A stretch of 33,308 bases of DNA from an uncultured Erysipelotrichaceae bacterium (GTDB lineage: Bacteria > Bacillota_I > Bacilli_A > Erysipelotrichales > Erysipelotrichaceae), in assembly GCA_900315225.1 (NCBI GenBank), contig OMYM01000464.1, forward strand, positions 1-33,308. The letters run 5' to 3'. The first letter of the stretch is position 1. Every line of letters begins with the position of its first letter. Positions 13,069-22,355 of this stretch are shown here, piece after piece. The notes under the pieces were generated by a model. The model was not told the origin of the DNA and did not search any database. It was given only the letters and a program-made list of their open reading frames with translations. The translations under genes were made by a program, and so were the position numbers.

Positions 13069-13097
13069 TTGACAAAGATTTTTCGGTTGGATATATT
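13069..13097 (+). promoter_or_regulatory. Consensus-type promoter of the trigger-factor-like / GTPase-nuclease operon
   Basis: TTGACA (13069-13074), a 17-base spacer and TATATT (13092-13097) form the best sigma-A-type promoter in the window. The expected start is near 13104, giving a leader of about 15 bases with GAGGTG before the ATG at 13119. Confidence 0.8.
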
Positions 13098-13118
13098 AAA
13101 CAAAATGAGGTGTTTAAC

Positions 13119-13475
13119 ATGAAAGTAAAAGAAGAAAAAATCAGAAAAGGATATACACGGATCACAGTGGAAATAGAGAATGAAAAGTTTATTAGCGCAT
13201 GCAAAAGGGCATCCGTTGAGATATGCGGGAAGCTTTTGAAAGAAGATGGTACTCCCATGACCATGAAGGAAGCGGCGGGGATGTATGGCATGGCGATGTT
13301 TCATTCCAAGGCTTCGTCCATGTTGATACAGGAGACGCTGCCTTTGATCTTAGAAGAAAAAGGCATGAAAGATAATTATGGAGTAGCGACTGATGTCATC
13401 CAGATCGGCGATCAGGCGGATTTGATTTACACCGCAGTGGTGAATTTGGAACGATCTAAGGAGACGGATGCATGA
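13119..13475 (+). CDS. Small protein resembling the trigger factor N-terminal (ribosome-binding) domain
   Basis: The product is 118 residues. Its layout follows the trigger factor N-domain: a first strand (YTRITVEIENEKFISACKRA), a middle helix segment (SSMLIQETLPLILEEKGM) and last strands (DVIQIGDQADLIYTAVVNLE). In trigger factor the ribosome-docking signature GFRxGKxP sits between the first and middle parts. Here that position reads LLKEDGTPMTMKEAAG, so the signature is absent. The peptidyl-prolyl isomerase and C-terminal chaperone domains are also missing. The ATG at 13119 is chosen over the in-frame GTG at 13110 because of GAGGTG at 13107-13112. It is the first gene after a strong promoter and lies 52 bases before the GTPase-nuclease gene. 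The family link is a by-eye comparison. Confidence 0.55.
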   Translation: MKVKEEKIRKGYTRITVEIENEKFISACKRASVEICGKLLKEDGTPMTMKEAAGMYGMAMFHSKASSMLIQETLPLILEEKGMKDNYGVATDVIQIGDQADLIYTAVVNLERSKETDA

Positions 13476-13527: not shown

Positions 13528-16068
13528 ATGAATAACATAGTGATAGGCATTTTGGCGCATGTTGACGCTGGAAAGACAACTTTGATCGAAAGAATGCTTG
13601 TTCGCTCCAAGGCAATCACTAAGGCTGGAAGTGTGGATGACCGCAACACGGTCTTGGATTTTGATGGTCAAGAGAGGAAACGTGGCATAACAATCTACGC
13701 CAAGGAAGTGGACTTTGTCTACAAGGACACGCATGTGTTTGTGATCGATACCCCAGGGCATGTGGATTTTTCATCGGAGATGGAGCGAAGCCTACAGGTC
13801 ATTGACATTGCTATTATGGTTGTCAATGCCAGGGAAGGGTTGGAAAGCCATACGGAGACAATCTGGAAATGCCTTGAGCATTATCAAGTGCCTACGATTA
13901 TCTTTGTTAATAAGATGGATCTGCAAAAGAATATCGATGTTCCAGAAGAGGATACGCACAAAGAGATCATGAATGAGCTTCATAGGCGTTGTTCACCTAA
14001 TTGCATCGATTATTGTGCAGAGGATCGGTTAGACCAGCTTGCTATGACATCGGAGGAAATGCTGGAGACGTTTGTCGAAAACATGGCCATCCCGGATCAT
14101 ATGGTCACAGAAGCTTTATATGCGCGCAAATGCTTCCCGGTTGTTTTTGGCACGGCATTGCATGACGAAGAGTATTCGTCTTTTGGTGAGGCGACAAGGG
14201 TCGACAGGCTCCTGGATCTTGTTGATGGTTTTTCGGGCTTCAAGGAATATGGCGATGAATTTGGCGCAAAGGTATATAAGATCACATACGATGATCAACG
14301 CACAAGGCTGACCCATGTGAAGGTGACAGGCGGTACTTTGCAGGCAAAGCAGCGTATTGGAGAGGATGAACAGGTTGATCAGATTCGCATGTATTTTGGC
14401 GACCGCTACAGGGATGCAAAGGTTGTCGAGGCTGGCATGGTGTGCGCAATCAAAGGGTTGGTGAAATATGAGGCGGGGCAGGGGATTGGGTGCGAGCCTG
14501 ATGGTGCCAAGCCTGTCTTGTCCGCGTACTTGGACTATGAGCTGATACTGCCTGATGGTGCCAATGCCTTGAACATGGCGCGCATTTGCCGAGAGATCGC
14601 GGACGAGGATCCGACCTTGGAAATCAATCTGGATGAAAAGGCGCGACAGATCCATGTGCGTATCATGGGTGATATGCAAAGAGATGTGCTTGCGCAGAAA
14701 ATCTATGAGCGTAGCGATGTACATGTCGGTTTTGGCAAGGAGAGAATCATCTATTGCGAGACGATTTCCCAATCGGTTGAAGGATATGGGCATTTTGAAC
14801 CATTGAGGCATTACGCCGAAGTACATGTAAGGCTTGATCCTTTACCTAGGGGAAAAGGAATTGTTGTTGAATCTGAGTGTCCAAGCGATATGTTGCCTAT
14901 GCATTGGCAAAAGTCAATTCTTTCCAATCTTTCGCATAAGAGGCACAAGGGTGTTTTGACTGGTGCCGATTTGACTGATGTCAAGATTGTTTTGACTGCT
15001 GGCAGAGGACATCTCAAGCATACTGAAGGCGGGGATTTTCGCCAAGCTGCCTTGCGCGCTGTGCGTCAAGGGTTGATGAAGGCAAATAGCCAATTGCTGG
15101 AGCCATATGTTTCCTATACCCTGAGCATTCCGGCGCAATATCTTGGAAAAGCATTGGCAGACCTAGAGACGAGGAAATGCTCGATGCAAACGGAAGAGGC
15201 AGGCGAGAAGATGATCGTGAAGGGACGAGGAAGCTTGCGCCATTTGATGTACTACGCCAATGATGTGAGGGTCTATTCCAAAGGAAAAGGAAGTTTTGGC
15301 TGGATTCCAGACGGATACGATGTATGCGAGGAAATGGAGAAAATCGTCATGGATGCCTGCTATGATCCCGAGGCGGACTTGCGCAATCCGACTGGTTCGG
15401 TTTTCTGCGCGCATGGTGCGGGATACTATGTCCCTTGGGATGAGGTGGAGGAACACCTTCACATCGACATTGCCAAGGATTCTTCCTTTTCTTCGTATTA
15501 CAGGTCAACCTACAAAGTGACGGAAAACGACTTGATGGCTATCCTGCAAGCTGCCGGGGGAAAAAACAAGAACGAAAAGAAAAAACCAAAGCCTAGGAAA
15601 GAGGAAGAGGATAAGAAAAAACAAAAGCCAACGCAGGCTTCCCATCTTGCGCCATGCTTGATCATCGATGGATACAATATGATGTATGCCTGGGATGAGT
15701 ACAAGGAATTGGCACGCGAGGATATTTCATATGCGCGCGACAAGCTTTCCGACTTGATTTTTAACTATCAGGGATTTACAGGTGATCTAACGATTCTTGT
15801 TTTCGATGGCTATCGTGTCAAGGACAACATAGGCTCGGTTTTCACACGAGGGAATCTTATGATTGTGTATACGCGCCATGACCAGACGGCAGATGCATAC
15901 ATAGAAAAACTGACATTTGACTTAAAAGGGAAATACCAGATGACGGTGGCGACCAGTGATGCGCTGGTGCAAAATGCTGCTTTTGCGCATGGCGCGTTGC
16001 GTATGAGCGCAAGGGAGCTAGAGACACGGATACAGCTTGCAATGGGAAAGCTTGAGTTTTCGATTTGA
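13528..16068 (+). CDS. Tet(M)/EF-G-like ribosomal GTPase fused to a Rae1/YacP-type NYN endoribonuclease domain
   Basis: The product is 846 residues. Residues 1 to about 650 follow the ribosomal protection protein/EF-G plan: P-loop in ILAHVDAGKTT, switch region RKRGITI, DTPGHVDF, and NKMD, then EF-G-like domains II-V (for example PLPRGKGIVVESECPS and LLEPYVSYTLSIPAQYLGKA). At the domain IV tip, where Tet(M) has a YSPVST-type loop, this protein has GRGHLKHTEGGDF (residues 492-504). A lysine-rich linker spans about 669-705. The last 140 residues are a NYN/PIN-like domain close to Bacillus Rae1 (YacP): LIIDGYNMMYAW (D714), ILVFDGYRVKDN (D760), DQTADAYIEKL (D789), VATSD (D811) and HGALRMSARELETRI. 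Rae1 cuts mRNA in the ribosomal A site. The fusion suggests a GTPase that brings a nuclease to the A site. Tetracycline resistance is possible but not shown. Confidence 0.88.
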   Translation: MNNIVIGILAHVDAGKTTLIERMLVRSKAITKAGSVDDRNTVLDFDGQERKRGITIYAKEVDFVYKDTHVFVIDTPGHVDFSSEMERSLQVIDIAIMVVNAREGLESHTETIWKCLEHYQVPTIIFVNKMDLQKNIDVPEEDTHKEIMNELHRRCSPNCIDYCAEDRLDQLAMTSEEMLETFVENMAIPDHMVTEALYARKCFPVVFGTALHDEEYSSFGEATRVDRLLDLVDGFSGFKEYGDEFGAKVYKITYDDQRTRLTHVKVTGGTLQAKQRIGEDEQVDQIRMYFGDRYRDAKVVEAGMVCAIKGLVKYEAGQGIGCEPDGAKPVLSAYLDYELILPDGANALNMARICREIADEDPTLEINLDEKARQIHVRIMGDMQRDVLAQKIYERSDVHVGFGKERIIYCETISQSVEGYGHFEPLRHYAEVHVRLDPLPRGKGIVVESECPSDMLPMHWQKSILSNLSHKRHKGVLTGADLTDVKIVLTAGRGHLKHTEGGDFRQAALRAVRQGLMKANSQLLEPYVSYTLSIPAQYLGKALADLETRKCSMQTEEAGEKMIVKGRGSLRHLMYYANDVRVYSKGKGSFGWIPDGYDVCEEMEKIVMDACYDPEADLRNPTGSVFCAHGAGYYVPWDEVEEHLHIDIAKDSSFSSYYRSTYKVTENDLMAILQAAGGKNKNEKKKPKPRKEEEDKKKQKPTQASHLAPCLIIDGYNMMYAWDEYKELAREDISYARDKLSDLIFNYQGFTGDLTILVFDGYRVKDNIGSVFTRGNLMIVYTRHDQTADAYIEKLTFDLKGKYQMTVATSDALVQNAAFAHGALRMSARELETRIQLAMGKLEFSI

Positions 16069-21247: not shown

Positions 21248-21250
21248 TCA

Positions 21251-22355
21251 ATGGAATTATTTGAAATGAAACAGGGTGTTTCCCGCAGCCAGGCCAAATT
21301 GGAGTCGCTTGGCTACTCTCTTTGACCTCGCGTCTAAAAAGAAGCAGGTAGAGGAAAACGAGGAATTGATGAACGCGGCTGATTTCTGGAACGACCAGAA
21401 AAAGGCACAGCGTATCATCAGGGAGACAAATAGTCTTAAGAATCTGGTCAAGACGCACGAAAAACTGACTTCCGAGCTGGCGGATTTGAATGAAAGCGTA
21501 AACGATCTTTCTGCATCCTTTGACGAAGAGCTTAACGAGCTTGTGCAGGAGGAATATGGTGAGGTGATGAAGGACTTTAGTGCCTTTGAGATCCAAGTGC
21601 TGTTGTCTGGTCCCTATGACGATCACAACGCGATTCTGGAAATCCATCCTGGCGCAGGCGGAACAGAGGCCATGGACTGGGCAGCAATGCTTTATCGCAT
21701 GTATGTCCGCTGGGCGGAGCGCAGGGGATTTAAAATTACCGTCATGGACTATCAGGAAGGCGAGGAAGCGGGCATGAAGTCATGCTCGGTTCAGATTAGC
21801 GGACCAATGGCATATGGCTATCTCAAGGCAGAGAATGGCGTGCATAGGCTTGTGCGCATTTCTCCGTTTGATTCGAATGCCAGAAGGCATACTTCGTTTG
21901 CCAGCGTGGAGGTCATGCCGGAATTTGACGACGACATGGAGATCGAGATAGATGAAAAGGATCTGGATGTCATCACGATGCGTTCTTCTGGCGCTGGTGG
22001 TCAGCACATTAACAAGACCGATTCGGCGGTGCGCATGACGCATAAGCCAACAGGCATCGTTGTTTTCTGTCAGACGCAGCGCTCACAGCTACAGAACAGG
22101 GAAGCATGTCTGAATATGTTGAAGTCAAAGCTGTTGCAGATTAAGATCAGGGAGAACGAACAAAGGATGAAAGACATCAAGGGCGAGGTAAAGGCAAATG
22201 AATGGGGTTCACAGATTCGCTCCTATGTCTTCTGCCCGTATACAATGGTCAAGGATTTGCGCACAGGCTACGAGGTTGGCAATATTCAAGGCGTTATGGA
22301 TGGCGACTTGGATGGATTTATCGATAGCTACTTGCGCAGCCAGATCTCTGCGTAA
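21251..22355 (+). CDS. prfB: Peptide chain release factor 2, with programmed +1 frameshift
   Basis: RF2 releases finished proteins at UGA and UAA. The reading frame starts at the ATG at 21251 (after AAAGGAGG), runs 24 codons to CTT and meets an in-frame TGA at 21323-21325. A +1 shift skips T21323 and continues in the frame that ends at 22355, giving about 367 residues. Beyond the shift the protein is typical: the SPF stop-codon recognition motif in ISPFDSNARRHTSFASV and the GGQ in SSGAGGQHINKTDSAVRMTH. The in-frame TGA is the normal autoregulatory device of prfB, which senses RF2 shortage, and is not a mutation. It is co-transcribed with secA. Confidence 0.96.
21320..21326 (+). promoter_or_regulatory. 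prfB programmed +1 frameshift site CTTTGAC
   Basis: The site reads CTT TGA C, as in most prfB genes. The usual AGGGGG-like internal Shine-Dalgarno element three bases before CTT is missing; the preceding codons are GGC TAC TCT. A GGAG at 21301-21304 is 15 bases away, too far for the known spacing. Confidence 0.9.

Follow-up and report, generated by a model that had tools for sequence, protein, structure and literature searches.

A translational GTPase fused to a Rae1-type ribonuclease domain, with a possible role at the ribosomal A site

Could a translational GTPase carry its own messenger RNA (mRNA) nuclease to the A site of the ribosome? Such a protein appears to be encoded on a stretch of DNA of 33,308 nucleotides from an uncultured Erysipelotrichaceae bacterium (contig OMYM01000464.1 of assembly GCA_900315225.1), the whole of which is called the window here. 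At 13528..16068 on the plus strand, 846 codons followed by a stop run uninterrupted in a single frame and form a complete fused gene, whose product joins an EF-G-like GTPase, through a linker, to a C-terminal NYN domain of the Rae1/YacP type. We read it as a chromosomal, vertically inherited ribosome factor, the GTPase of which would read or open the A site while the tethered Rae1 domain would cut the mRNA there, and we give this reading a probability of about 0.5.

The fusion architecture itself is not new. Atkinson 2015 (BMC Genomics 16:78, PMC4342817) reported that the Tet proteins of ten Clostridiales species had gained a YacP-like NYN ribonuclease (RNase) domain. Judged by the architecture described there, those fusions are the same as the one in the window, that is, one frame encodes a Tet/EF-G-like GTPase followed by a YacP-like NYN domain at the C-terminus. 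They were filed as Tet proteins, whereas the GTPase analysed here falls in a distinct subfamily without the Tet tip, and its fusions have a far wider spread, unfused relatives and a linker motif.

Domain layout of the fused protein

Based on Pfam, the protein contains in order GTP_EFTU (residues 3-232, E 5.9e-50), EF-G_D2 (246-316), EFG_III (349-403), EFG_IV (406-520, E 2.7e-15), EFG_C (522-602, E 2.4e-14) and NYN_YacP (711-838, E 9.9e-39), and 38 full-length orthologues, with 33-55% identity to the window protein, could be aligned with it. The GTPase (G) domain occupies 13534..14223 (plus strand, as do all features of the gene) and includes the AHVDAGKTT P-loop, DTPGHVDF and NKMD, with K16, H78, K129 and D131 invariant in the homologue alignment. 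It is followed by the EF-G-like domains II and III (14263..14736), IV (14743..15087) and V (15091..15333). The AlphaFold2 model, computed with an alignment of 54 homologues, has a mean pLDDT of 86 and one long disordered stretch, residues 650-705, where pLDDT is below 50. Domains II and III of the model have the EF-G fold, and its GTPase part matches ribosome-bound EF-G with a Z of 39.9 over 593 residues, the large root mean square deviation (rmsd) of this match probably being caused by a differing orientation of the domains. The G motifs, domains II-V and the EF-G fold place the protein in the EF-G-type translational GTPase superfamily (EF2 family), as an earlier note on this DNA had proposed from the sequence; the motifs named in that note, including HGALRMSARE of the NYN domain, are all present. 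While the overall fold (Z about 40) and the G-domain motifs are common to elongation factor G, the fusion differs from it in the loops of domain IV and in having a C-terminal extension, a linker and the NYN domain. The window's genome also encodes EF-G genes of its own.

The earlier note had further recognised a C-terminal NYN domain with four acidic residues, and had allowed that this domain might fail to match NYN/Rae1 profiles. No such failure was seen, since the domain (15658..16041) matches NYN_YacP with 133 bits against a cut-off of 24.6. It also matches the crystal sequence of Bacillus subtilis Rae1/YacP with an E value of 5.7e-22, and a profile of 16 such NYN domains finds this protein as its sole match in the Protein Data Bank (PDB). 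A structure search with the whole model spanned residues 1-639 only, and the NYN domain was therefore folded and searched alone. With a pLDDT of 91, it superposes on Rae1 (PDB 5mq9) with a Z of 19.6 and an rmsd of 1.7 Å over 129 residues, while the next unrelated PDB entry has a Z of 8.8. Residues D714, D760, D789 and D811 (codons at 15667, 15805, 15892 and 15958) align with D7, D53, D81 and D104 of Rae1, and all four are invariant across 92 homologues. Rae1 has been described as an A-site endoribonuclease that requires translation (PMC6613710, PMC10100781, PMC12320835), and by analogy the fused NYN domain would be a putative translation-dependent nuclease cutting mRNA in the A site. It has in common with B. 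subtilis Rae1/YacP (PDB 5mq8, 5mq9) the NYN fold, the four aspartates and the GALRxSAREL segment, with 38-39% identity over the domain. However, Rae1 itself is free and about 170 aa long, its gene follows rlmB, and B. subtilis, C. difficile and Listeria all have the stand-alone rae1 in a cysS-rlmB-rae1 region, whereas here the domain forms the C-terminus of a GTPase, and the fusion is the only NYN_YacP gene of the window's genome.

Between the two halves lie two further elements. The first is a C-terminal extension of the GTPase (residues 603-647, 45 aa, 15334..15468), which contains YDPEADLRNPTGSVFCAHGAGYYVPWDEVEEHLHID; according to the alignment, it is kept in both fused and unfused members and is found in neither Tet(M) nor EF-G. 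The second is a disordered linker (residues 648-705, 15469..15642). The linker had been described as lysine-rich, which holds for its second half but not for the whole, as it also bears a conserved short motif at residues 666-679 (ENDLMAILQAAGGK, 15523..15564), with a predicted helix over 666-675. The family consensus, D-[EK]-E-L-x-A-I-F-E-R-T-Y-G, is present in 83 of the 92 fused linkers, whereas on average 2 of the shuffled linkers have it; this shuffle controls for no more than composition, and the pattern had been fitted to the sequences on which it was then counted. The motif is absent from the unfused GTPases, and stand-alone Rae1 has no room for it; it therefore appears, from these comparisons, to be a new element specific to the fused forms, and its role may be to dock and thereby hold the NYN domain in position. 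A linker of 57-139 aa (among the 92 homologues) together with one conserved motif would suggest that the tether is mobile and has a docking site, and would speak against an accidental read-through.

Fused and unfused forms

In the sample of the window's phylum, 39 genomes have an NYN_YacP match over the cut-off, and in 37 of them the domain is fused, in frames of at least 823 aa; a Rae1 from another locus was found in none of the 39. The nearest relatives of the window protein, with up to 56% identity, belong to the same genus. The other two genomes hold a gene split into adjacent genes (L087) and a gene without domains IV-V (L082). At L087:5027-7518 (plus strand), two overlapping genes of 684 and 146 aa meet in a four-base GTGA overlap after the A-rich linker stretch, which may be a true split, a frameshift site or a sequencing error. 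L082:7843-9627 (minus strand) encodes a 594-aa variant from which domains IV-V and the C-terminal extension are gone, but which still has domains G-III, the linker motif and an NYN domain with all its aspartates.

Outside this phylum, a search of the contigs of named genomes with the single window protein gave no match, and a profile from the NYN-only alignment A2 was used instead. The scan returned 80 loci, mostly fused, in Lachnospiraceae, Oscillospiraceae and their relatives. In a class of the Clostridia type, with the genome of Mediterraneibacter massiliensis at its centre, the NYN domain occurs in 249 of 391 genomes. The best 150 NYN matches of that class include 78 whose frame is 820 aa or longer and 63 whose frame does not exceed 220 aa, and only one genome represented there (G824) has both a fused and a stand-alone copy. 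Consequently, the fusion normally replaces free Rae1. The earlier note had raised a sequencing error joining two genes as a possibility, and such an artefact of sequencing or assembly is ruled out by dozens of independent orthologues, single-contig genomes included. A complete fused gene, in a frame of 878 aa, is also present in an unverified record from human stool named 'Bacteriophage sp.' (MT835563.1), probably a bacterial contig labelled as phage.

In the NYN tree, two changes suffice between the fused and the stand-alone state. The exception is Clostridium sp. 12(A) (L174), a free NYN domain within the fused clade, which may most simply be explained as a later separation. An unfused GTPase with the C-terminal extension, lacking both linker and NYN domain, is found in about 16 listed genomes of the Clostridia class and on the megaplasmid pMP118 of Ligilactobacillus salivarius. 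The locus L280 (G719), tagged as unfused in the second GTPase tree, is counted as fused, since it carries the linker motif and is truncated by the end of its contig. The L. salivarius protein (WP_164920261), an unfused member of the 'TetM/TetW/TetO/TetS family' by name, shares the loop HTxGGDFRQA and the C-terminal extension with the fusion and is about 51% identical to the GTPase half of the Monoglobus protein; however, it ends after the extension, with no linker motif and no NYN domain. On pMP118 its gene, annotated as tetracycline resistance protein, adjoins rpsN and a gene for a putative metal homeostasis protein.

These patterns bear on whether the two halves work together at all. The GTPase could work as a specialised factor of the EF-G/EF4 type, with the NYN domain as an ordinary Rae1, so that the fusion would set only their stoichiometry or local concentration and GTP hydrolysis would gate nothing. 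Each half does occur alone in related genomes, three of which (G485, G640 and G866) have the unfused GTPase and a stand-alone NYN domain elsewhere; the halves of L087 are separate overlapping genes, and the linker is long, disordered and for the most part variable. However, one fusion event was kept through wide divergence with separations rare in the NYN tree, and a linker motif that neither the unfused GTPases nor stand-alone Rae1 possess is conserved; both speak against two independent activities, which we regard as rather unlikely.

Relation to Tet proteins and genomic surroundings

The earlier note had called the GTPase Tet(M)-like. Judged by profile scores, tree position and domain IV tip, it belongs to a separate subfamily outside Tet, and the label 'Tet(M)' should be dropped. 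The scores are far under the cut-off of every Tet model tried, for example 335 bits against 775 for NCBIfam tet_protect and 249 bits against 1100 for the Tet(M)/W model. In the GTPase tree, the unfused L. salivarius protein and the fused GTPases form one clade (support 100/99). The tree also holds Tet(M), Tet(O), Tet(S), EF-G and LepA, and the branches between this clade and the Tet clade measure 1.85 and 2.44 changes per site; the root of the tree sits on the very long Tet branch and is unreliable, and the second GTPase tree was made in 'quick' mode. In the alignment with Tet(M/O/S) and EF-G, the loop at the tip of domain IV (residues 492-505, GRGHLKHTEGGDFR, 15001..15042) replaces the Tet(M) YYSPVSTPADFR loop. 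The tip of the subfamily consists of GHFEPLRHYAEVH and HxKHTEGGDFRxA, both near-invariant, and Tet(M) YSPV is not there; the window protein has HLKHTEGGDFR in the YSPV position, with H498, T499, G501, G502, D503 and R505 invariant in alignment A3. While the fusion and Tet(M)/Tet(O)/Tet(S) have in common the EF-G-like domains G and II-V, a similar length of the GTPase half and about 29% identity, the fusion lacks the YSPV tip, has another C-terminal extension, is chromosomal and has the NYN domain added.

Then, could the protein still protect the ribosome from tetracycline or another A-site drug, with the RNase as an accessory? Atkinson 2015 (PMC4342817) proposed a new resistance mechanism with RNase activity, or cleavage of ribosomal RNA (rRNA), tet_protect is the best NCBIfam match, and the earlier note's guess that such proteins may bear tetracycline resistance names was borne out by an Agathobacter rectalis protein called 'TetM/TetW/TetO/TetS family' in GenBank, although other members are named 'translation factor GTPase family protein'. 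Besides the scores and the long branch just described, the tip argues against this function: in Tet(M), Pro509 of the YSPV loop overlaps the drug site (PMC7456112), and the fusion has another conserved loop in this place. Moreover, four relatives (G209, G188, G272 and G175) carry the fusion plus a separate Tet(M)-like gene, three of these four genes having been placed in the GTPase tree. No leader element known to Rfam was found in the window, no mobile element was seen around the gene, and the gene is almost absent from plasmids, where only 2 of the 1247 records matched in a scan reach a query coverage of 80% or more. A mobile resistance gene was accordingly rejected on gene context and plasmid scan, and drug protection in general seems improbable to us. 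A role in anti-phage defence was likewise set aside, as the PADLOC match is weak and confined to the G domain (LeoA, E 0.0016).

The neighbours of the gene in the window are ispD, comF-like genes, secA and prfB. In 52 loci of relatives, none of them accompanies the fusion with any consistency, and the context therefore gives no functional clue. A further possibility is that the GTPase recruits ribosomes on which the NYN domain would cleave or mature rRNA or transfer RNA, so that the protein would serve the maturation or turnover of ribosomes and not the decay of mRNA. This is very improbable: B. subtilis rae1 does adjoin rlmB and mrnC, which both act on rRNA, and Listeria has the order rlmB-rae1, but no rRNA enzymes adjoin the window gene, and among solved nucleases the domain is by far closest to Rae1, which cuts mRNA in the A site (Z 19.6 versus 8.8).

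Directly 5' of the fused gene lies an open reading frame (ORF) of 121 aa (13110-13475, plus strand) with weak similarity to Trigger_N, the N-terminal domain of trigger factor (E 5.7e-4, below the cut-off), and this ORF is not near the fusion in the relatives (52 loci). A promoter-like TTGACA-17-TATATT at 13069..13097 (plus strand), a consensus match only, with 11 of 12 positions matching, precedes both the ORF and the fused gene. The prfB gene for release factor 2 (about 21250-22355) has an ATG start near 21250 and an early CTT TGA C programmed frameshift, and the ORF lists show its downstream GTG frame only. The assembly of the window (G000), with 591 contigs, a total of 5.2 Mb and 9% contamination, may be a mixed bin, the listed genomes of the same genus having 1.3-3.3 Mb.

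A possible course of events at the A site

EF-G-like factors reach into the A site with domain IV, and in the subfamily no domain is better conserved than this one (mean column identity 0.68), so that insertion into the A site is probably still in use. Ribosome binding, the choice of mRNA as target, the order of events and their link to GTP hydrolysis may be pictured as follows. On a ribosome with a free or a blocked A site, the EF-G-like half would bind at the factor site and insert domain IV into the A site, which domain IV would probe or clear. GTP hydrolysis would then withdraw domain IV, and the NYN domain, on its long flexible linker, could enter the vacated A site and cut the mRNA; in a variant, it would act in the A site of a neighbouring collided ribosome. 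After the cut, the ribosome could be rescued and the mRNA degraded. The fusion would thus stand in for free Rae1, which Bacillus uses without a GTPase of its own. Because the tip of domain IV and the Rae1 domain cannot share one A site, a sequential model is the simplest, and the intact G motifs, the invariant nuclease residues and the high conservation of domain IV would fit it. The earlier note's idea that two modules directed to the A site are joined in one protein gains support from both domain assignments, the catalytic residues and the fold matches.

Several points weigh against a coupled A-site factor. As one A site cannot hold the domain IV tip and Rae1 together, the model has to suppose a hand-over or a second ribosome. 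In the locus L084, which like L082 comes from a small genome, the tip of domain IV is degenerate and the NYN domain intact, and in L082 domain IV is missing, which suggests that cleavage there does not need domain IV; such retention of the NYN domain would favour a delivery or tethering role for the rest of the protein, and L082 retains the linker motif as well. An NYN gene is present in 11 of the 16 listed genomes with the unfused GTPase and absent from the other five, and because the GTPase occurs unfused, in these five even without any NYN domain, it would have a function of its own, one that, to judge from these gene contents, need not involve cleavage. Experimental work on any fused protein was not found in the literature searched, mostly outside subscription journals, in agreement with the earlier note, which had known of none; the 2015 report of the fusion had escaped it.

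The coupled A-site factor is nevertheless the reading we prefer, and its parts differ in strength: the domain layout and folds, the intact and conserved catalytic residues, the replacement of stand-alone Rae1 and the separate subfamily outside Tet were observed, while ribosome binding, the target and the steps at the A site are inferred. Strict gating of the cleavage by GTP is doubtful. A still broader proposal is equally tentative, namely that an uncharacterised class of translational GTPases forms a motor-gated mRNA cutter, in which A-site entry and GTP hydrolysis lead to a hand-over, through the linker motif, to the protein's own Rae1 domain, and that this is the main route of mRNA cleavage on stalled ribosomes in much of the gut Firmicutes.

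The fusion is abundant among gut Firmicutes, with an NYN domain in 249 of 391 sampled genomes of the Clostridia class and fusions making up more than half of its best 150 matches. Since some members are named tetracycline resistance proteins without having the Tet signature, name-based surveys of resistance in the gut could miscount them. If the coupled A-site factor is true, GTP-driven access to the A site would be tied to mRNA cleavage in one molecule, and how Rae1-type enzymes choose stalled ribosomes would become directly testable.
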